Positions 2,341-9,994 of a DNA stretch of 64,000 nt are shown here, piece by piece. A program made the position numbers and the translations under genes. The stretch's first letter is position 1. Each line of letters starts with the position of its first letter. This DNA comes from Burkholderia sp. WP9. Lineage in GTDB: Bacteria; Pseudomonadota; Gammaproteobacteria; Burkholderiales; Burkholderiaceae. The DNA is taken from positions 2,418,001 through 2,482,000 of the forward strand of contig NZ_FNTG01000001.1 in NCBI RefSeq assembly GCF_900104795.1, in the 5' to 3' direction. The notes below the pieces were generated by a model. The model was not told the origin of the DNA. It saw only the letters and a program-made list of their open reading frames with translations, and did not search any database.

Positions 2341-3768
2341 CTACGACGATGCGGTCACGTCAGCGAGCTTTACCGCTTTAGCGGCCACCGAAGAGGCCGT
2401 CGCGACGTTGCGCAGATCGGCGAGGAATGTATCGCGCCAGACGGACAGATTGTTCTCGCGCATCGGCGCCATCATGTCGGCATGCCGCGCCTGTCGCTCG
2501 GCGAGCGGCATCGACAATGCGCGCTCCAGCGCTTCGGCCATCTGCGACAGATCGAACGGATTGACGACCAGCGCGCCCGGCAACTGCTCGGCGGCGCCGG
2601 CGAATTGCGACAGCACCAACACGCCCGGATCGGCCGGATCCTGCGAGGCGACATATTCCTTCGCGACGAGATTCATGCCGTCGCGCAGCGGCGTCACGTA
2701 GCCGACCTGAGATTGGCGGAATAGCGCCATCAACAGATTGCGCTCGTATTTGCGATTCAGATACTGAATCGGGGTCCAGTCGAGCTGCGCGAACCGGCCA
2801 TTGATGCGGCCGGCTTCGCCCTCGAGCGTTTGCCGAATCCGCTGGTAAGTCGTCACGTCCGCGCGCGTCGGCGGCGCGATCTGCACCAGCGACACGCGAC
2901 CGTGCCAACCCGGCGCGTTCAGCAGCAGCCGCTCGAAGGCCTGGAAGCGTTCCACCAGACCCTTCGAATAATCGAGACGGTCCACGCTCATGATCAGCTT
3001 GCGCCCGCGCATGCCGTCGCGCAGGCTGCGCACCGGCTTACGGTCGGTGAACTGTTCGGCGGCCTTGGCAATCGCGTCCGGATAGATTCCGATCGGATAC
3101 GCGCCCACTTTGAGGAAGCGGTTGTACGCGTGCACCATGCCGTCCTCGCTCGAGGTGCCGTGCTGGCCGCGCTCGATGAAGTCGACGAACGACTGGCGGT
3201 CCGCCTCCGTCTGGAAGCCGATCACGTCATAGCTGCACATGGCCTTGACCAGTTCTTCGTGCGGCGGAATGGTCCGCAATACTTCCGGCACCGGAAACGG
3301 AATATGCAGGAAGAAGCCGATCGGATTCTTCACCCCCAGTTCACGCAGACAACGCGCGAACGGCAGCAGGTGATAGTCGTGAACCCAGATGATGTCATCG
3401 GGTTTGAGCAACTCCTTGAGTTGCTTCGCGAGCGTCGCGTTCACACGCTGGTAGCCCGCATATTCCTGCCGGTCGTAGCGCGACAGGTCATTGCGATAGT
3501 GGAACGTCGGCCACAGCGTCGCATTGGAAAAACCGCGGTAATACTGGTCGTAGTCGCGCTTGGTGAGGCCCACCGTCGCGTACGTCACGTTGCCTTGTTT
3601 CTCGATCACCGGAGCGCTCGGCTCACTCACCGTCTCGCCGCTCCAGCCGAACCAGACTCCGCCGGTTTCCTTCAACGCGTCCAGCACGCCGATAGCGAGG
3701 CCACCCGCTGCGGGACGGCCTTCCTGGGTCGGCGCGACACGATTCGATACCACGATCAGTCTGCTCAT
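2341..3768 (-). CDS. otsA: alpha,alpha-trehalose-phosphate synthase (UDP-forming)
   Basis: Glycosyltransferase family 20 enzyme, 475 residues, joining UDP-glucose and glucose-6-phosphate to give trehalose-6-phosphate for osmoprotection. Visible motifs: the N-terminal glycine-rich loop GGLAIGVLDALKETGG, VHDYHLLPFA, FLHIPFPVPE, the nucleotide-sugar site SVDRLDYSKGLVERF, and RDGMNLVAKEYVA. The reading frame extends 36 codons upstream, but the ATG of MSRLIVVSNRVAP at 3768 has a GGTGGAG ribosome site and is where the family begins. The phosphatase otsB is not in the window, so its partner must lie elsewhere. Confidence 0.96.
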   Translation of the reverse strand: MSRLIVVSNRVAPTQEGRPAAGGLAIGVLDALKETGGVWFGWSGETVSEPSAPVIEKQGNVTYATVGLTKRDYDQYYRGFSNATLWPTFHYRNDLSRYDRQEYAGYQRVNATLAKQLKELLKPDDIIWVHDYHLLPFARCLRELGVKNPIGFFLHIPFPVPEVLRTIPPHEELVKAMCSYDVIGFQTEADRQSFVDFIERGQHGTSSEDGMVHAYNRFLKVGAYPIGIYPDAIAKAAEQFTDRKPVRSLRDGMRGRKLIMSVDRLDYSKGLVERFQAFERLLLNAPGWHGRVSLVQIAPPTRADVTTYQRIRQTLEGEAGRINGRFAQLDWTPIQYLNRKYERNLLMALFRQSQVGYVTPLRDGMNLVAKEYVASQDPADPGVLVLSQFAGAAEQLPGALVVNPFDLSQMAEALERALSMPLAERQARHADMMAPMRENNLSVWRDTFLADLRNVATASSVAAKAVKLADVTASS

Positions 3769-3980
3769 TGGTGCTCCACCTAGTTCAGTTGTTTCGTTGC
3801 ATACGGATATGTGCCAAAAAGGTGCATGCAAGTCGCGTGCCGTTTTTTGAGATGTTGGAAATAAAAATGTATGCAAATGTGACGAGCGAGCAAAAACGCG
3901 CAGCGCCGCTCCGCCACGAAGAAATTTTTTCTGCTTTATCTGACGAAACCGGAACGCCTCTTACCGGTCGTCGAACCGTC

Positions 3981-4193
3981 TCAGGCGTCCTGCTCCGAGC
4001 CCAGGTCGCGCTGATATTCAAGCCCTTCCGGCCGCACGCCGCCCTGGTTGTGCTCGCCGTCTGGCGGCGCATCGGGCGCGACGCGGTTCTGCCCTGCCGG
4101 ATCGGGCGACGCCGTCGCGCTGTCCTTGCTGCCGCCCGGCCGGGAATCGCGCTTCGAATGACGCGCTGAACGTCGCAGTGCTGGATGTCTCAT
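3981..4193 (-). CDS. Small hydrophilic hypothetical protein
   Basis: A 70-residue, highly charged protein rich in Arg, Ser, Asp and Pro, with no membrane segment and no recognised domain. The start (MRHPALRRSARHSKR) is supported by a TTGGAGG ribosome site seven bases upstream. An ATG five codons earlier lacks one. It lies between divergently oriented otsA regulatory DNA and the sigma54-associated cluster. It may be intrinsically disordered. Coding status is inferred from frame, ribosome site and strand consistency only. Confidence 0.5.
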   Translation of the reverse strand: MRHPALRRSARHSKRDSRPGGSKDSATASPDPAGQNRVAPDAPPDGEHNQGGVRPEGLEYQRDLGSEQDA

Positions 4194-4346
4194 GATCCAC
4201 GCCTCCAAGGGGAAGCCTGCCGCCAGTTTTGCGGCATCAATACAGTCTAGGGGCCGCCAAGGTAATTTGCCGGTAAAAGATGCGCCGGCTTTGTAACAAG
4301 TACATAAATTCTCGACGTCGGACTGTGGCGCAACGCACGGAACGCG

Positions 4347-4616
4347 TCAGAGTTGCATGCGTGGCGACGGTGACGGCCACCCCTGACTGGCTTGTGGCGT
4401 TTGCGTGGGCTGCGGCGGCGGATCGCCAATCGGCGGAGCGACTGGTTCGATGGGTTCGATCGGTTGCGGCCCCGGATCGGGACTCGGAACAGGAATGGTG
4501 TCGGGCTCGCCGGGACTCGGTGGCGCAATCGGAGGAGCTGATGGCGGCTCGATCGGCTCGGGGCGGTGAGCATGCATCGGCAGGGGAAGCACGGGAGCGG
4601 CAGCGTATTCCGGCAT
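4347..4616 (-). CDS. Small proline-rich protein, probable sigma54-dependent gene
   Basis: An 89-residue protein with Pro-Glu-Pro-Ile, Pro-Pro-Ser and Pro-Pro-Gln repeats from about residue 18 onward, so probably extended and unstructured. There is no clear signal peptide or membrane segment. The ATG at 4616 has a GAGG ribosome site and is only about 24 bases downstream of the predicted start of transcription from a -24/-12 promoter (4652-4665). It lies just downstream of the sigma54 response-regulator gene on the same strand. The function is unknown. Its placement suggests it is an output of that regulator. Confidence 0.6.
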   Translation of the reverse strand: MPEYAAAPVLPLPMHAHRPEPIEPPSAPPIAPPSPGEPDTIPVPSPDPGPQPIEPIEPVAPPIGDPPPQPTQTPQASQGWPSPSPRMQL

Positions 4617-4649
4617 GTTGTGTATCCTCGTTTGCGTTCCAACGGAATG

Positions 4650-4667
4650 CAGCAAGGCCTGTGCCGT
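4650..4667 (-). promoter_or_regulatory. Sigma54 (-24/-12) promoter of the proline-rich protein gene
   Basis: On the minus strand the sequence is CGGCACAGGCCTTGCTG. It has GG and GC with the required ten-base separation, a GGCAC -24 box and a TTGCT -12 box. Transcription would start near 4640, 24 bases before the ATG at 4616. It is one of three such sites within 4.2 kb. Confidence 0.65.
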
Positions 4668-4708
4668 TACGGATGCGCCCGGCAGGATCACATCGGCGGT
4701 GGTGAACG

Positions 4709-4741
4709 GTGTCAGCGGCGCGGGTGGCACGCCGCTGACAC
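4709..4741 (-). repeat. 11-bp perfect inverted repeat 3' of the sigma54 regulator gene
   Basis: GTGTCAGCGGC (4709-4719) and GCCGCTGACAC (4731-4741) form a perfect stem with an 11-base loop. It sits just after the stop codon of the regulator and 45-90 bases upstream of the predicted sigma54 promoter. No U-run follows. It could end the regulator transcript or be an enhancer-type binding site. Confidence 0.55.
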
Positions 4742-4751
4742 GCAGTGACGA

Positions 4752-6152
4752 TTAAGCGTCCGCGCCGCCCAGTGCGCGCGATTCGTCGGCGGCATCGCCG
4801 TCTTCGCGCGCGTCGTTGCCATACTCGACGAGGCGGTTGTACAGCGTCTTCAGGCTGATGCCGAGGATCTCGGCGGCCCGCGTCTTCACGCCGCCGCACT
4901 GCTCGAGCGTCGCCAGAATCAGTTGACGGTCCGCTTCGGCAAGCGACGTGCCGAACGGAATCGTAATCGCGGTGCCGGCTGCGGGCTTGGACAGCGTGAT
5001 CTGCAGCGGCACGGTCGCCGTGCTGTCCGAATCCGAACCCGACATGATGTGCGCGCGCTGCACGTAGTTCTTCAACTCGCGCACATTGCCCGGCCACGGG
5101 TACGACATCAGCATGTCCTTCACGGCTGCGGGGAAATGCTTTTTGGTACTGTGGCGTTCGTTGAGTTCGTCGAGGAAAGCCTGCGCCAGCAGTTCCACGT
5201 CCTTACCGCGTTCGCGCAACGGCGGCAAACTGATCGGAAACACGTTCAACCGATGGTAAAGGTCGAGCCGCAGCTTGCCTTCCAGCACGGCCTGCTCGGG
5301 ATCGCGGTTGGTCGCCGCGATCAGGCGCACGTCCGTTTCGATTTCCTTGGTCGTGCCGACCCGCATGAACATGCCGGTTTCCAGTACGCGCAACAGCTTG
5401 ACCTGCAACTCGATCGGCATTTCGGTGATTTCGTCGAGGAACAGCGTGCCGCCGTTCGCGCGCTCGAAATAACCCTTGTGCTGACGGTCCGCGCCGGTGA
5501 ACGAGCCGCGCTCGTGGCCGAACATCTCCGATTCGATCAGGTTCGGCGAAATCGCGCCGCAGTTCACCGCGAGAAACGCGTGCTTACGGCGCAAGCTGAG
5601 CTGGTGCAGCGTCTGCGCGGCGACTTCCTTGCCGGTGCCCGACTCGCCCACCAGCATGACCGAAGCCGCGGTCGGCGCGACGCGGCCGATCTGGTCATAG
5701 ACCTCCTGCATGGCCGGCGAATTGCCGAGCATCAGACCGAAGCGGCCCATGCGGCGCAGCTCGCCGCGCAACGTGCCGATTTCCGCTTTCAGGTCGCCGG
5801 CGCGCGGCAGGCGCGAGAGGATCGCCTTCACGCGCTGCATGTTGATCGGTTTGACCAGATAGTCGGTGGCGCCCATTTTCAGCGCGTTGACCGCCGACTC
5901 GACCGTGGCGTGGCCGGTAATCACGATCACTTCCACGCCGGAGCGCGGATCCAGATCTTCGAACAGATCGACCCCGCTGCCGTCCGGCAGCTTCAGGTCC
6001 GTAAAGACAACGTCCGGCATCTGCCGGACCAATTGAATGCGCGCTTCGCGCAAATCGCCCGCGGTGGCAGTGGTCAGGCCGTCTTCCCCGATGATGGCGG
6101 AAAGCGCCTCGCGGGTACCGGCATCGTCATCGACAATCAGTACATGTGGCAT
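4752..6152 (-). CDS. Sigma54-dependent response regulator (NtrC family)
   Basis: A 466-residue enhancer-binding protein. The receiver domain occupies residues 1-120, with the acidic pocket DDD at 8-10, the phospho-accepting Asp52 (TDLKLPDGSG) and Lys101. The AAA+ domain spans about 140-370, with Walker A GESGTGKE (169-176), the sigma54-contacting loop GSFTGA (216-221, Ser in place of the usual Ala), Walker B GTLFLDE (235-241) and the sensor sequence ATNRDP. A Fis-type helix-turn-helix ends the protein (RAAEILGISLKTLYNRL). No histidine kinase gene is adjacent, so it is an orphan regulator here. Its helix-turn-helix closely resembles that of the second activator at 7467-8525, suggesting related DNA sites. 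The start follows the family. Confidence 0.93.
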   Translation of the reverse strand: MPHVLIVDDDAGTREALSAIIGEDGLTTATAGDLREARIQLVRQMPDVVFTDLKLPDGSGVDLFEDLDPRSGVEVIVITGHATVESAVNALKMGATDYLVKPINMQRVKAILSRLPRAGDLKAEIGTLRGELRRMGRFGLMLGNSPAMQEVYDQIGRVAPTAASVMLVGESGTGKEVAAQTLHQLSLRRKHAFLAVNCGAISPNLIESEMFGHERGSFTGADRQHKGYFERANGGTLFLDEITEMPIELQVKLLRVLETGMFMRVGTTKEIETDVRLIAATNRDPEQAVLEGKLRLDLYHRLNVFPISLPPLRERGKDVELLAQAFLDELNERHSTKKHFPAAVKDMLMSYPWPGNVRELKNYVQRAHIMSGSDSDSTATVPLQITLSKPAAGTAITIPFGTSLAEADRQLILATLEQCGGVKTRAAEILGISLKTLYNRLVEYGNDAREDGDAADESRALGGADA

Positions 6153-6459
6153 CGCGTCTCGAAAGCCTGCAAGCGTGGGTGTGGGAATACATGCTAAGGC
6201 GCATGCTTAAAAGCGCGCCGACGGCCTGGCGCTTTGCCGGGCTGCCAGGTGCTCCAATGTGAGCGCCCACCAACCTGAACGAAACACGCCAACCACCGAC
6301 TTGATTCAATATTGCAACAATATCGAGCCAAAACCCCCGGTATAAACCGACATTGTTGTCTATTTACCTATTATACGGCTTTATCGAGGCAAAATTAACA
6401 AGGCACCCGGGCGCCGCCCGCTAGGGCGGCACACCGGCGACGCTGTTTAAACAGTGCCG
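6153..6459. other. AT-rich intergenic control region upstream of the sigma54 regulator
   Basis: About 300 bases without a gene. It contains a perfect palindrome, ATATTG-CAA-CAATAT (6309-6323). It also contains a minus-strand TATAAT (plus-strand ATTATA, 6370-6375) with TTAATT 17 bases upstream, a plausible sigma70 promoter for the regulator gene giving a leader of roughly 210 bases. The palindrome lies downstream of that start, where a repressor could act. Confidence 0.45.
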
Positions 6460-6729
6460 TCAGCTGCGAGGAAACGGCCATGCGCCGCCGTTGCCGTTCG
6501 GATACGCGGAGCCGTTGGCGCCATGCGCGCCCGGGCTCACATCGGCCGCCGGAGCCGCATTGGCCGCGGGGGTTGCCGGCGCCGCCACCGTACCGCCTTC
6601 GTTTTCCCAACGGCTCAATTCACGCGCCACCGGAATCTGAGCCGCGCGGCTGCGCTGCACATAACGGATAGCCAGAAAGCCACCGAGCGCCATCAGCGCG
6701 CCGAAGATGCCGATTTTAGGTCGTGCCAT
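6460..6729 (-). CDS. Small single-pass membrane protein
   Basis: An 89-residue protein. Residues 4-24 (PKIGIFGALMALGGFLAIRYV) form one membrane segment. A charged stretch follows, then a low-complexity tail rich in Ala, Pro, Asn and Gly. The frame is open further upstream, but the ATG at 6729 has an AAGGAG ribosome site. It lies 47 bases downstream of the DUF883-like gene on the same strand and is probably cotranscribed with it from the sigma54 promoter at 7241-7254. No family is recognised. A stress or envelope role is inferred from context only. Confidence 0.65.
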   Translation of the reverse strand: MARPKIGIFGALMALGGFLAIRYVQRSRAAQIPVARELSRWENEGGTVAAPATPAANAAPAADVSPGAHGANGSAYPNGNGGAWPFPRS

Positions 6730-6776
6730 CGTGAACTCCTTGTCTTCATGAAGCGGATTGGTACCGGAACGCGCGT

Positions 6777-7094
6777 TTAGCGCGTCGTCAGGACGCCGAG
6801 CACGAAGCCGACGCCCGCGGCAATGCCGATCGAACGCCAAGGGTTGTGGCGCACGTAGCGTTCGGTATTGACGGTGGCTGTCCGGTAACGACGTTGCGCA
6901 TTCTGCTGCGCGTCGCCCAGCGCCGATTGCAGGGTTTCGACGTGCGTACCCAGCTTGTCGCGCAGCGCGTCGACGCCCTCGCCAGGCACGTTGGCGGCAA
7001 GCCGCAGCATTTCTTCCGAGTCCTTCAGCAGCACCCGCAGATCTTCGACAATCTTCTGGCCGCCGAGTGCAAGCTGTTGCGTGGTGTCAGTCAT
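6777..7094 (-). CDS. DUF883 / ElaB-YqjD family membrane-anchored protein
   Basis: A 105-residue protein with the family layout. An amphipathic, helical N-terminal two-thirds (LALGGQKIVEDLRVLLKDSEEMLRLAANVPGEG and following) leads to a conserved RYVRHNPWRSIGIAAGVGFVLGVLTTR end carrying one membrane segment. E. coli ElaB and YqjD anchor at the inner membrane and bind ribosomes in stationary phase or stress; that role is from the family and is not shown here. Of two consecutive ATGs, the second (7094) has better spacing to the AGGAG site. A -24/-12 promoter lies about 135 bases upstream. Confidence 0.85.
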   Translation of the reverse strand: MTDTTQQLALGGQKIVEDLRVLLKDSEEMLRLAANVPGEGVDALRDKLGTHVETLQSALGDAQQNAQRRYRTATVNTERYVRHNPWRSIGIAAGVGFVLGVLTTR

Positions 7095-7466
7095 CATTCA
7101 CTCCTGGTCTGAGTTCGGCGTTCGCGTGAGCTTTCCGGCGAGCCTGCCGGGCCTGCGGATCGGCAAGCGCCACCCGCAGTGACGAGCCATCGAATGGCAT
7201 CGGATCGCGAGAAAAAGCACACGCGTGTCGGGTGGAATTCGCAAACACCGTGCCCGGTAACTTTGACCTTAAATCCCAAGGCGGTCGCTGCGCCAGGGAC
7301 TTTCGACCGACCAGAAACGAATGTATCCGCAGGCCTTCACATCGATTGCCGAAAACGGTGCCAAAGTGGTTAAATCAATCTTTGAGAGATAGCGGCTTGA
7401 CTGGTTTATCTCGTTCCCAGGCCTGCGCGCCGCAACAACGAACACATTTGCACAGGACCCCCGTTT
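7095..7466. other. Divergent intergenic region between the DUF883 gene and the second sigma54 activator
   Basis: 372 bases without a gene. It holds the sigma54 promoter for the minus-strand pair and upstream DNA where an activator could bind. GTGCCAAA at 7358-7365 recurs inside the inverted repeat upstream of the 8754 promoter (8663-8670). No convincing promoter for the plus-strand activator gene was found. Confidence 0.4.
7239..7256 (-). promoter_or_regulatory. Sigma54 (-24/-12) promoter of the DUF883 / small membrane protein pair
   Basis: Minus-strand GGGCACGGTGTTTGCG: GGCACG at -24 and TTGC at -12 with exact ten-base GG-to-GC separation (7253-7254 and 7241-7242). It is the best match of the three in this region. 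Transcription would start near 7229 and run into 7094 and then 6729. Confidence 0.72.
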
Positions 7467-8525
7467 ATGGCGTCAATCGACCTGGACTCGCCCGCCGTCT
7501 CCGCCGGCGGCAATGGTTCGGCACAGGCGAAGCAGCGCGTCGCGGACGGCATCGCGGGACTGAAGTCGTACGGCCTGCTGTACGGCTCGTCGCCGGTGAT
7601 GCTGGATCTGTACGAGCAGATCGAACGCGTCGCCGGCACCGACGCGACCGCGCTGATCATCGGCGAATCGGGCACGGGCAAGGAATTGATCGCCCGCACG
7701 ATTCACGATCAAAGCGGCCGTAAGGACGCGCCATTCGTCGCCGTGAACTGCGGCGCGATTCCCGACGAACTCATCGAAGCCGAACTGTTCGGCCACGAAA
7801 AAGGCAGTTTTACTGGCGCGGTGCAGGGCCGCATCGGCTACTTCGAACATGCGAACGGCGGCACGCTGTTCCTCGACGAGATTACCGAAATGGCGCCGGT
7901 GCGTCAGGTCAAGCTTCTGCGCGCGCTCGAAACGGGCACCTTTTATCGCGTGGGCGGCAATGACCTGATCAGCGGCAACGTGCGCGTGATCGCCGCGACC
8001 AATCGCGACCCGGCGGTCGCGGTCAAGGAAAACGGTCTGCGTGAAGACCTCATGTACCGGCTCGCGGTTTTCCCGCTACGCGCGCCGCCACTGCGCGAGC
8101 GTGAGAACGATCGCGAACTGCTCGCGCAGCACTTCCTCGCGCTGCTCAATCAGCAGGAAGGCACGAGCAAAAGCTTCAGCAAAAAATCGATCGAAACGCT
8201 GCGCACCTGGTCGTGGCCGGGCAATGTGCGCGAGTTGAAGAACGCGGTGTATCGCGCCTTCATTCTCGCGGAGAAGACGGTGGAGCTGCCGCATCCGCAT
8301 CTCGCGTCGCGCGTGAAAAAGCCCATGACCCAGGGCGATGCGATGAGCGTATGGATCGGCACGCCGCTCGCCGACGCGCAAAAACAGATCATTCTCGGCA
8401 CGCTCAAATATTGCGGCGGCGACAAACGTCGTGCGGCCAAAGCACTTGGCGTGAGTCTCAAGACGCTGTACAACCGTTTGAGCGCATACGGCGACGAAAG
8501 CGCGGAAGACGAGTCCGAGCAATAA
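7467..8525 (+). CDS. Sigma54 activator without a receiver domain
   Basis: A 352-residue enhancer-binding protein starting almost directly with the AAA+ domain: Walker A GESGTGKE (66-73), GSFTGA loop (113-118, Ser variant), Walker B GTLFLDE (132-138), ATNRDP sensor, WPGNVRELKNAV, and a C-terminal Fis-type helix-turn-helix (RAAKALGVSLKTLYNRL). Only about 40 residues precede the AAA+ domain, so there is no receiver, GAF or PAS sensor. It would be constitutively active unless controlled by level or by a partner, as in PspF-type activators. The 4752-6152 protein has the same architecture plus a receiver, and the two helix-turn-helix regions are very similar. Confidence 0.92.
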   Translation: MASIDLDSPAVSAGGNGSAQAKQRVADGIAGLKSYGLLYGSSPVMLDLYEQIERVAGTDATALIIGESGTGKELIARTIHDQSGRKDAPFVAVNCGAIPDELIEAELFGHEKGSFTGAVQGRIGYFEHANGGTLFLDEITEMAPVRQVKLLRALETGTFYRVGGNDLISGNVRVIAATNRDPAVAVKENGLREDLMYRLAVFPLRAPPLRERENDRELLAQHFLALLNQQEGTSKSFSKKSIETLRTWSWPGNVRELKNAVYRAFILAEKTVELPHPHLASRVKKPMTQGDAMSVWIGTPLADAQKQIILGTLKYCGGDKRRAAKALGVSLKTLYNRLSAYGDESAEDESEQ

Positions 8526-8536
8526 CTTCGTGACAC

Positions 8537-8567
8537 GGTACTCACGTGGAAAAGCCGCGTGAGTACC
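8537..8567 (+). terminator. Stem-loop 3' of the receiver-less activator gene
   Basis: GGTACTCACGTGG pairs with CCGCGTGAGTACC around a five-base AAAAG loop, giving 13 pairs with one G-U. It starts 11 bases after the stop codon. No U-run follows, so it could also be an RNA-stabilising or factor-dependent end. Confidence 0.5.
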
Positions 8568-8650
8568 GGCATCGTGCATCTGACAGCGCTTGCAAAAAGC
8601 CCTTGCTTGCGCGCGTCGAATTCCGAATCCAATCCCTTCGCACCACCAAT

Positions 8651-8685
8651 CAAAATCGATCTGTGCCAAACAGAAACCGATTTTG
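8651..8685. promoter_or_regulatory. Candidate enhancer (upstream activator) site for the 8754 sigma54 promoter
   Basis: CAAAATCG (8651-8658) and CGATTTTG (8678-8685) are a perfect inverted repeat separated by 19 bases. They are centred about 90 bases upstream of the -24/-12 element, the usual distance for a sigma54 activator site. Assignment to either activator is inference. Confidence 0.4.
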
Positions 8686-8751
8686 CTCGCACCATCTTTT
8701 GCAATTGCTTGCATTTTCCCTCTGCCAATTACAAATAGCATCCTGCAAAAT

Positions 8752-8769
8752 GCGGCACACGCATTGCCA
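8752..8769 (+). promoter_or_regulatory. Sigma54 (-24/-12) promoter of the lipoprotein pair
   Basis: GCGGCACACGCATTGCCA: GGCAC at -24 and TTGC at -12, with GG (8754-8755) and GC (8766-8767) separated by ten bases. Predicted start of transcription is near 8779, about 70 bases before the lipoprotein ATG at 8850. Confidence 0.65.
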
Positions 8770-8849
8770 GGTGGGGAACGCGTGTTATTCGTTCATTCGG
8801 TGTTTATCGAGCGTGAACGAAAGGCACTTGCAGGAGCAGAGACAGGGAA

Positions 8850-9428
8850 ATGCAAAAAAGTATGGTCTGGGCCGAATGGGCAAAACAATCCGCCGGGCGT
8901 GGTCGTCCCAACGCCACGGCACTCGTTGCTCTCGTCGTGGCGATCTCATCGGCGTTGAGCGGCTGTAGCTCGCTCTACTCTGAAGGCGCCACCGCCGGCG
9001 CCGGTATCGCAGGCGCCGCGCTCGCGGCAAAAGTGACGAACAACGCGGCCGTCGCAACCGGCATCGGCCTCGGCGCGGTCGCCGCGGCGCGGGCCGGCGT
9101 GCAGTATTCGGAGCGCGTGGTTCACACGAATACGCAGGACGGTATCGCCAAAATCGCCGGGCCGCTCGACGTCGGCGCAGTGGCGCCATGGAGCGTCACC
9201 CACTCTGTGCCGATCGAAGACGACGAACACGGCCGCGTCACCGTCAGCCGCATGATCAGCACGGGCGCGCTCAACTGCAAGGAAATCGTCTTCTCCGTCG
9301 ACCAGACCGCCACCAAGAATGTGCCGGCCAGCAGCGCGTTTTATGTCGCCTCGATCTGCCGCGACGGCGAGAACTGGAAATGGGCATCGGCCGAACCCGC
9401 CACCGAACGTTGGGGCGCGCTGCAATGA
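8850..9428 (+). CDS. Putative lipoprotein, first of a tandem pair
   Basis: A 192-residue secreted lipoprotein. A polar N-terminus of about 20 residues precedes a hydrophobic stretch and the lipobox LSGC at about residues 36-39, followed by SSLYSEG. Next comes a Gly/Ala-rich helical hairpin (AGIAGAALAAKV, GIGLGAVAAARAG). A folded domain with Cys residues then ends in WKWASAEPATERWGALQ. It is paralogous to the next gene, which ends almost identically, so the pair arose by duplication. The stop overlaps the next start (ATGA), so the two are translationally coupled. Its sigma54-type promoter ties it to the activators upstream. The function is unknown. Confidence 0.82.
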   Translation: MQKSMVWAEWAKQSAGRGRPNATALVALVVAISSALSGCSSLYSEGATAGAGIAGAALAAKVTNNAAVATGIGLGAVAAARAGVQYSERVVHTNTQDGIAKIAGPLDVGAVAPWSVTHSVPIEDDEHGRVTVSRMISTGALNCKEIVFSVDQTATKNVPASSAFYVASICRDGENWKWASAEPATERWGALQ

Positions 9429-9994
9429 CGGCGCGTTCGCATACGGCTGGACTCAAGGCGCGCCGCGTGCGCCTCGCTACGTGGTCCGGCAACCGGCTGC
9501 GGCTCGTGCTGGCCGGCGCGCTGTGCGTCGGCGCGAGTGTCATGACGAGCGGCTGCTCGTCGGTGGGCGCGGCAAGCGGCGCGGCGGCCGGTGTCGCGTC
9601 GGGTCTCGTGACGTCCAATCCGGCGATCGGCATCGGTGTCGGTATTGCCGTACAGGCGGCGACCGACGAGGCGGTGGGCCACTATATGCGCACCATGCAC
9701 ACCGATCAGCAGAACATGATCGCCGCGTTGGCTGGCGCCATGCCGGTCGGCGAGACGCGCCCCTGGGCCGTCAAGCACACGCTGCCGATCGAGAACGGCC
9801 ACGGCCAGGTTCGCGTGACGCGCGCATTCGGCTCGGCCCTCGCGCTCTGCAAGGAATTCGTGTTCTCGGTGCAGGACGGCGACGGCCCGAGCGCGCATGA
9901 GGACTGGTACACGGCGAGCGCGTGCCAACAGGACAAGGGCTGGAAGTGGGCGTCCGCTGAACCGGCCGTTCAGCGCTGGGGCAATCTGCAATAG
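9425..9994 (+). CDS. Putative lipoprotein, second of a tandem pair
   Basis: A 189-residue paralogue of the preceding protein. It has an Arg-rich N-terminus, a hydrophobic segment, the lipobox TSGC (about residues 39-42) and SSVGAASG. A Gly/Ala-rich stretch follows, then the same domain architecture: PWAVKHTLPIENGHGQVRVTRAF matches PWSVTHSVPIEDDEHGRVTVSRM in its neighbour, and both end in a WKWASAEPA-RWG-LQ motif. The frame is open far upstream, but the ATG overlapping the previous stop gives the lipoprotein signal. It is probably outer-membrane anchored. Its role is unknown. Confidence 0.8.
   Translation: MTARSHTAGLKARRVRLATWSGNRLRLVLAGALCVGASVMTSGCSSVGAASGAAAGVASGLVTSNPAIGIGVGIAVQAATDEAVGHYMRTMHTDQQNMIAALAGAMPVGETRPWAVKHTLPIENGHGQVRVTRAFGSALALCKEFVFSVQDGDGPSAHEDWYTASACQQDKGWKWASAEPAVQRWGNLQ

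Follow-up and report, generated by a model that had tools for sequence, protein, structure and literature searches.

Our analysis of a 64,000-nucleotide stretch of Burkholderia sp. WP9 (hereafter the window; assembly GCF_900104795.1, contig NZ_FNTG01000001.1, positions 2,418,001 to 2,482,000 of the forward strand) suggests that the locus at 2341..9994 forms one island of a general-stress regulon that depends on sigma54 and has a dedicated copy of this factor (RpoN2) as well as its own pair of activators, the enhancer-binding proteins (EBPs) EBP1 and EBP2. From the sequence evidence we put the probability of this reading at about 0.6. The stretch looks like one half of a stress-protection gene set conserved in Paraburkholderia and relatives: RpoN2 together with EBP1 and EBP2 would switch on otsA (trehalose), PRP and DUF883-TM89 at the window locus, and on a second contig rpoN2 itself, the genes of a PRC-barrel protein, topoisomerase IB, DJ-1/PfpI with DUF4142, a BON protein and small proteins, and probably katE. 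A first-pass annotation of the same DNA had proposed a compact sigma54 locus, home to two activators, and had suggested a programme of the stress type; conservation and gene content support both proposals, and the programme appears larger than was thought, as it takes in otsA, a second island and a second sigma54. The main features of the locus are as follows.

2341..3768 (minus): otsA, trehalose-6-phosphate synthase (Pfam Glyco_transf_20; TIGR02400 above cut-off)
3827..3842 (minus): −24/−12 site CGGCACGCGACTTGCA upstream of otsA; exact match at 3828-3841, the 16-mer starting 74 nt before the otsA start
4347..4616 (minus): PRP, proline-rich protein of 89 aa; no family match
4651..4666 (minus): −24/−12 site CGGCACAGGCCTTGCT upstream of PRP; exact pattern match, conserved
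4752..6152 (minus): EBP1, with receiver, sigma54 AAA+ domain and Fis-type helix-turn-helix (HTH) (Pfam)
6460..6729 (minus): TM89, small protein downstream of DUF883 with a single N-terminal hydrophobic stretch; no family match
6777..7097 (minus): DUF883 protein, ElaB/YqjD-like (Pfam DUF883 and DUF883_C; NCBIfam ElaB model below cut-off)
7240..7255 (minus): −24/−12 site GGGCACGGTGTTTGCG upstream of DUF883-TM89 (exact pattern match, conservation, alignment)
7467..8525 (plus): EBP2, with sigma54 AAA+ domain and Fis-type HTH, without receiver, divergent from EBP1 (Pfam)

A cluster of −24/−12 sites

An exact search for GGCAC-N5-TTGC finds five matches in the window, all within 3828..8767 (about 4.9 kb). 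Three of them, at 4652-4665 (minus), 7241-7254 (minus) and 8754-8767 (plus), had been named in the first-pass annotation, and a pattern search confirmed their positions and strands; the two further matches lie at 3828-3841 (minus), before otsA, and at 4939-4952 (minus), inside EBP1. The small-protein genes behind the three sites (PRP, DUF883 with a single-pass protein, tandem lipoproteins) are as had been described, with otsA as an addition. None of 100 dinucleotide shuffles of the window reaches five matches (mean 1.0, largest 4). Across the whole genome (9.02 Mb) the exact pattern occurs 154 times (places listed for the first 100) versus 86 times for a reversed control, and 0.03% of 20,000 simulations with 154 random positions bring any five together within 4,940 bp; on the shuffles and simulations we reject a chance origin of the cluster.

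A looser pattern, TGGCACN5TTGCW, is not enriched, either genome-wide with one mismatch allowed (283 vs. 282 in the control) or in the window with two (33 vs. 33.6 expected), and therefore a lone match proves little. The idea that nine fixed bases are rare by chance and that their local run is striking thus holds for the cluster and not for single matches. Thirty own-genome loci, taken from the 283 places with exact or near TGGCACN5TTGCW sites, contain mixed genes, the sole recognized regulon member among them being a 94-aa open reading frame (ORF) of the rpoN2 island described below. Single matches are thus weak, the cluster is meaningful, and conservation must settle each site separately.

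Conservation of the sites

We fetched 80 named loci around EBP2, mapped the window genes onto them by tblastn, and scored each upstream site by its matching letters out of 11, with GG and GC obligatory. The GG and GC columns are invariant by construction, because sites had to contain them; what is informative is whether a site occurs, on which strand and where, and how the seven remaining scored letters read, compared with the antisense strand and with control genes. Rows were dropped when the tblastn match began away from the N-terminus (residue 12, 25 or 3, depending on the analysis) or when flanks were short; gene calls in the fetched loci come from our own ORF caller, and several gene names were assigned by eye from sequence.

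The otsA site, which the first-pass annotation had missed, is the best conserved of the window sites: a sense site scoring at least 8/11 lies 49-87 nt before the start in 46/46 usable orthologues, and an antisense one in 3/46. A sense site of the same grade is found in all 13 orthologues of PRP, where it forms the main conserved block of the intergenic region. We regard chance as refuted by conservation for these two sites. For DUF883, a site of at least 8/11 lies within 260 nt in 16/16 usable rows of loci L070-L089 (L078, L081 and L083 were dropped and L085 has no match; antisense 2/16); over 34 rows and 150 nt upstream, 15 carry one. Control genes give the background for sites of at least 8 within 150 nt: MFS 1/15, ABC ATPase 0/42, ABC permease 1/47 and hyd70 (a small gene between PRP and otsA) 1/43; further genes give EBP2 2/48, PEBP 4/29 and EBP1 8/75, and 10.6% of random 150-nt windows carry such a site. 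TM89 has one upstream in 25/45, in a stretch that is largely DUF883 coding sequence.

Hence a −24 GG and a −12 GC at fixed spacing, conserved among relatives, are found upstream of otsA, PRP and DUF883 (in L070-L089), and, as described below, upstream of rpoN2 and its island genes. The three promoters first proposed fared differently: those of PRP and DUF883 stand on their conservation, that of the lipoproteins fails (0/37 relatives), and the better otsA promoter had been overlooked.

The activator pair

EBP1 is the closest relative of EBP2 within the genome. Both proteins have an AAA+ domain with Walker motifs, a GAFTGA-type loop (here GSFTGA) and a Fis-type HTH. The receiver Asp52 of EBP1 is present in 72/74 rows, and the GSFTGA loop and the recognition helix are kept. 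The HTH regions had been called near-identical, which is true of the recognition helix SLKTLYNRL (9/9 identical between EBP1 and EBP2) and not of the region as a whole (28/42 identical); each position of the helix is retained in 72-73 of 74 EBP1 rows and 78-80 of 81 EBP2 rows. Neither protein could be placed in a named EBP equivalog (NtrC, AtoC, PspF, NifA, etc.): every bit score among the 25 top-ranking NCBIfam models listed per protein is below the cut-off of its model. A count of 0/24 outside the genus, obtained at E 1e-130, is no proof of absence. Divergent neighboring EBP1 and EBP2 genes are seen in 34/70 genomes of the family (count by eye; G062 and G120 lie above the EBP2 cut-off and are not counted as pairs).

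One Noviherbaspirillum and one Herbaspirillum locus carry hybrid PAS histidine kinases convergent with EBP1 (L121 5332-7413; L127 4120-6999). These may be partners whose genes no longer neighbor EBP1 in the group of the window genome; Pfam and NCBIfam show no kinase among the scanned genes at 2341-9994 of the window.

A second sigma54 linked to the pair

Each of the two large contigs of the window genome carries one sigma54 gene, and 32/34 same-genus genomes also have two such genes. An rpoN gene lies within about 8 kb of EBP2 in 34/80 fetched loci (Caballeronia, Trinickia, Pararobbsia, Ralstonia, Pigmentiphaga, Verticiella, Achromobacter and metagenome-assembled genomes; the 34 include L143 and L123, in both of which the divergent pair is unconfirmed), and all 34 of these linked copies have a −24/−12 site of at least 9/11 upstream (antisense 3/34). 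Among 70 family genomes the EBP pair occurs in 34, the RpoN2 class (at least 518 bits; next match 452) in 33 and both in 29 (Fisher p 3e-10, kinship uncorrected). The pair and RpoN2 are at most 10 kb apart in 23 of the 29 genomes holding both (by eye) and more than 1 Mb apart in one other.

In a midpoint-rooted tree of 76 proteins, the EBP-linked rpoN copies and those of the island (in the window genome and in 20 genomes of the same genus) fall on one side of a branch with support 100/88 (99/97 without L143), and RpoN1 and most single rpoN copies of other families, where long branches were flagged, fall on the other. Support for the separation of the two sides reads 100/96. The rpoN2 on the second contig of the window genome thus groups with the EBP-linked rpoN, apart from RpoN1.

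The second island

Within 9 kb upstream of the window genome's rpoN2 (locus L181), Pfam identifies PRC-barrel, DUF3175, topoisomerase IB, DJ-1/PfpI, DUF4142 and BON genes. Sites precede PRC, topoisomerase, PfpI, the 94-aa ORF, BON and rpoN2, and four of them are exact GGCAC-N5-TTGC matches. Over the window genome and 20 same-genus genomes, sites are found at rpoN2 in 21/21, PRC in 12/12, PfpI in 11/12, the 94-aa ORF in 11/11, BON in 21/21 (at two distances) and topoisomerase IB in 4/4 rows with a usable start. The gene of a small GPSDSSDSG protein has a weaker site (8/11 letters) in 8/8, and the aminotransferase gene after rpoN2 has no site of at least 9 in 8 rows. In 29 loci outside the Burkholderia group, 86 sense vs. 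36 antisense placements were found, not all of them meaningful; the recurrent genes behind the sites are rpoN, BON, DJ-1, PRC, SDR and hemerythrin-like (some names given by eye, with a Pfam check for a few).

About 50 kb from the island, katE has a candidate site GGGTACACCGCTTGCT 84 nt before its likely (inferred) start; about 2% of 150-nt windows would hold a single site of this grade by chance.

Two further observations concern the same regions. Caballeronia (L098) encodes a small acidic protein with the motif GALGPSDSSDSGSD close to otsA, the window genome has one close to rpoN2 (L181 4072-4413; this copy without a Pfam match), and Verticiella (L134) and Achromobacter (L148) have theirs close to the EBP pair. 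The rpoN2/BON intergenic region (L181 9000-9130) contains the word TTGTAAA in 21/21 same-genus copies.

Discussion

Our results describe stress-protection genes that share one promoter type, together with small proteins of no known function (PRP, TM89, hyd70 and the 94-aa ORF). Probably EBP1 and EBP2 are the activators of these promoters, the sigma factor that reads them is RpoN2 and not RpoN1, and stress or starvation provides the signal. General stress regulons are usually credited to RpoS, SigB or EcfG. Their content recurs here (trehalose synthesis, catalase, BON/OsmY-like, DJ-1/YhbO-like and ElaB-like proteins); they differ in that the control proposed here is by sigma54, which needs an AAA+ activator. 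As sigma54 promoters stay closed without such an activator, the regulon could be kept tightly off during growth. The proposed order of events starts with a signal, possibly phosphorylation of EBP1, that allows RpoN1 or RpoN2 already present to act at the rpoN2 promoter; RpoN2 holoenzyme, aided by the EBPs, would then turn on the stress genes.

Somewhat more tentatively, and at less than even odds, the general stress response of Burkholderiales may be built on sigma54, with RpoN2 and a co-inherited divergent EBP pair in a two-step cascade whose level is set by the pair. The two EBPs, with the same recognition helix and one of them with a receiver, perhaps act as mixed oligomers. The base before the −24 GG is of interest here: it is T in 55/55 rpoN2 promoters, but in the window's genus T is found there in 1/45 otsA, 0/14 PRP, 0/17 DUF883, 1/11 PRC, 1/21 BON and 0/11 PfpI promoters. 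A T in rpoN2 promoters that is mostly absent from the targets would fit, as a hypothesis only, a cascade from RpoN1 to RpoN2: the rpoN2 promoter with the canonical T could be started by RpoN1, and most target promoters of the window's genus, without that T, would be read by RpoN2. The promoter of the 94-aa ORF has the T in 8/11, and in distant genera it is present at several targets.

Several observations weigh against a stress regulon run by RpoN2 and the pair. One concerns the enhancer: none common to the promoters was found by expectation-maximization motif search, word counts or palindrome enumeration, and TTGTAAA (rpoN2/BON) and TGCAA-N4-TTGCA (lipo1, the first lipoprotein gene) are each absent from the other promoters. 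This is unexpected because both activators keep the same recognition helix; a common enhancer may be too degenerate or sit within coding sequence, or few of these promoters may be targets of the pair. Others concern the sites. Outside L070-L089, DUF883 has a site of at least 8 within 260 nt in just 6/21 rows, and in L098 the site precedes an extra small gene rather than DUF883; the 20 island loci give 66 sense vs. 40 antisense placements, and the antisense strand carries sites of at least 8 before rpoN2 in 10/21 and before the GPSDSSDSG gene in 8/8, rpoN2 (with BON) and the GPSDSSDSG gene each being divergently paired with other island genes. Nor do the proteins always travel together: 2/34 same-genus genomes are without the second rpoN; four genomes of one genus (G069, G090, G106, G120) have RpoN2 without the pair at the cut-off; five have the pair without RpoN2 at the cut-off (four of one genus, and one 70% complete); and in five sampled same-genus genomes, including the window's, the two are on different contigs, which in draft genomes is no proof of distance. 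The stress function itself is suggested by gene content. As for the literature, the R. solanacearum rpoN2 mutant is described as having no phenotype, and its role as “enigmatic” (PMC4371752); a term search of a paper on sigma54 of P. phymatum finds rpoN2 and trehalose unmentioned (PMC5979394); and KatE was formerly linked to RpoS, as told in PMC4745423.

It is possible, though unlikely, that the sites are real but served by RpoN1 with other activators, e.g. NtrC under nitrogen or nutrient limitation, and that the pair and RpoN2 have their targets elsewhere. The five pair genomes without RpoN2 at the cut-off and the lack of an enhancer tying the pair to the promoters would be compatible with this; R. 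solanacearum rpoN2 requires rpoN1 and is induced in minimal medium (PMC4371752), and an E. coli rpoN strain is complemented by B. pseudomallei rpoN2 (PMC4745423), which leaves room for overlap between the two sigmas. However, the sites cluster at the EBP pair and at rpoN2, which are themselves linked in other genera, and the genes behind them are of stress type and not nitrogen genes. Moreover, PMC4745423 reports for a B. pseudomallei rpoN2 mutant normal use of nitrogen sources and reduced katE transcript and activity.

A still less probable explanation is that the pair and RpoN2 control chiefly themselves and a few neighbors, with otsA and the stress genes having other main promoters (e.g. 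RpoS-dependent ones) to which the −24/−12 sites contribute little. The −24/−12 sites upstream of all rpoN2 copies (34/34 linked, 21/21 island copies) fit such feedback, and the earlier link of KatE to RpoS points the same way; yet the otsA and PRP sites are conserved as well as the rpoN2 site, which argues against it. Finally, that the site cluster is a matter of chance, as the unenriched loose pattern, the unconserved lipoprotein site and the coding site at 4939 might suggest, we consider hardly credible given the shuffles, the simulations and the conservation relative to antisense strands and control genes.

The reading that we prefer, in which a stress regulon has a sigma54 and two activators to itself, has several points of contact with known systems. 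Some Burkholderiales carry two sigma54 variants (PMC3162934), and two RpoN homologues are noted for Burkholderia species in PMC12802281 and PMC12322963, whose passages otherwise hold nothing on this regulon. As here, the second sigma54 of B. pseudomallei and R. solanacearum, RpoN2, is encoded on the other large replicon and preceded by a sigma54 site (TGGCACAGCCTTTGCA in R. solanacearum). In B. pseudomallei, RpoN2 promotes katE, the genes katE (BPSS2214) and rpoN2 (BPSS2218) are numbered close together, and both proteins drop together in a trigger-factor mutant (PMC13192269). The difference lies in the activator pair and the general-stress regulon, which the passages of PMC4371752, PMC4745423 and PMC13192269 leave undescribed. 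In a Bordetella small-RNA paper, BP2158 is described as an activator for sigma54, and a sigma54-like site stands about 75 bp upstream of it (PMC11722255). A literature search in which few subscription journals were represented found, among the matches listed, no paper naming such a regulon.

Related EBPs encoded together are also known from HrpR/HrpS; the present genes differ in being divergent and in the receiver of EBP1. EBP2 resembles PspF in lacking a receiver, but falls below the cut-offs of the PspF models. In Rhodobacter sphaeroides, duplicated sigma54 factors serve flagella and nitrogen fixation. Sigma54 paralogues of that species share out the work as is proposed here, as told in passages of PMC3162934, where a cited title names cognate activators; the promoter difference reported for them is at −11, whereas the candidate difference here is the base before the −24 GG.

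If our reading is true, RpoN2 directs a general stress regulon, and this may explain the purpose of the second sigma54 of Ralstonia and Burkholderia, so far without a clear role. The EBP pair would offer a concrete handle on the regulon, in the form of two genes. As a whole, and provided that expression confirms it, the system reads as a stress regulon run by sigma54 and equipped with a sigma54 and activators of its own.

Other features of the locus

The remaining features of the locus are the following.

3981..4193 (minus): hyd70, hydrophilic protein of 70 aa encoded between PRP and otsA; no family match
4938..4953 (minus): fifth exact match, at 4939-4952, within the EBP1 coding sequence; in-frame codons G-T-S-L-A
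8671..8757 (plus): conserved block preceding lipo1 and lipo2; carries an inverted repeat of its own, TGCAA-N4-TTGCA, in 22/23 rows
8753..8768 (plus): site CGGCACACGCATTGCC before lipo1; exact match, but not conserved
8850..9428 (plus): lipo1, lipoprotein-like, 192 aa, lipobox-like LSGC; no family match
9425..9994 (plus): lipo2, lipoprotein-like, 189 aa, overlapping lipo1, lipobox-like TSGC; no family match

The hyd70 gene is present in most relatives of the genus group by tblastn mapping. We reject the match at 4939 as a promoter and take it as a coding coincidence, because its letters read as in-frame GTSLA codons of EBP1.

The first-pass annotation had placed a third sigma54 promoter at 8754-8767, upstream of the tandem lipoprotein genes, and this one we reject as well: the site is absent from 13/13 aligned orthologues, its −12 half occurs at the correct spacing in the window sequence only, and none of the 37 relatives with a recognizable conserved block (109 loci tried) has it. 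Since the −12 GC is unconserved at proper spacing, the conservation between species that the annotation itself had named as decisive is lacking, and there is probably no sigma54 promoter here. The −24 half of the site coincides with the end of the conserved block at 8671-8757. Besides TGCAA-N4-TTGCA, that block has TGCCA-N8-TGGCA, exact in 8/23 rows; it is unlike the sigma54 promoters and is perhaps a candidate binding site of another regulator.

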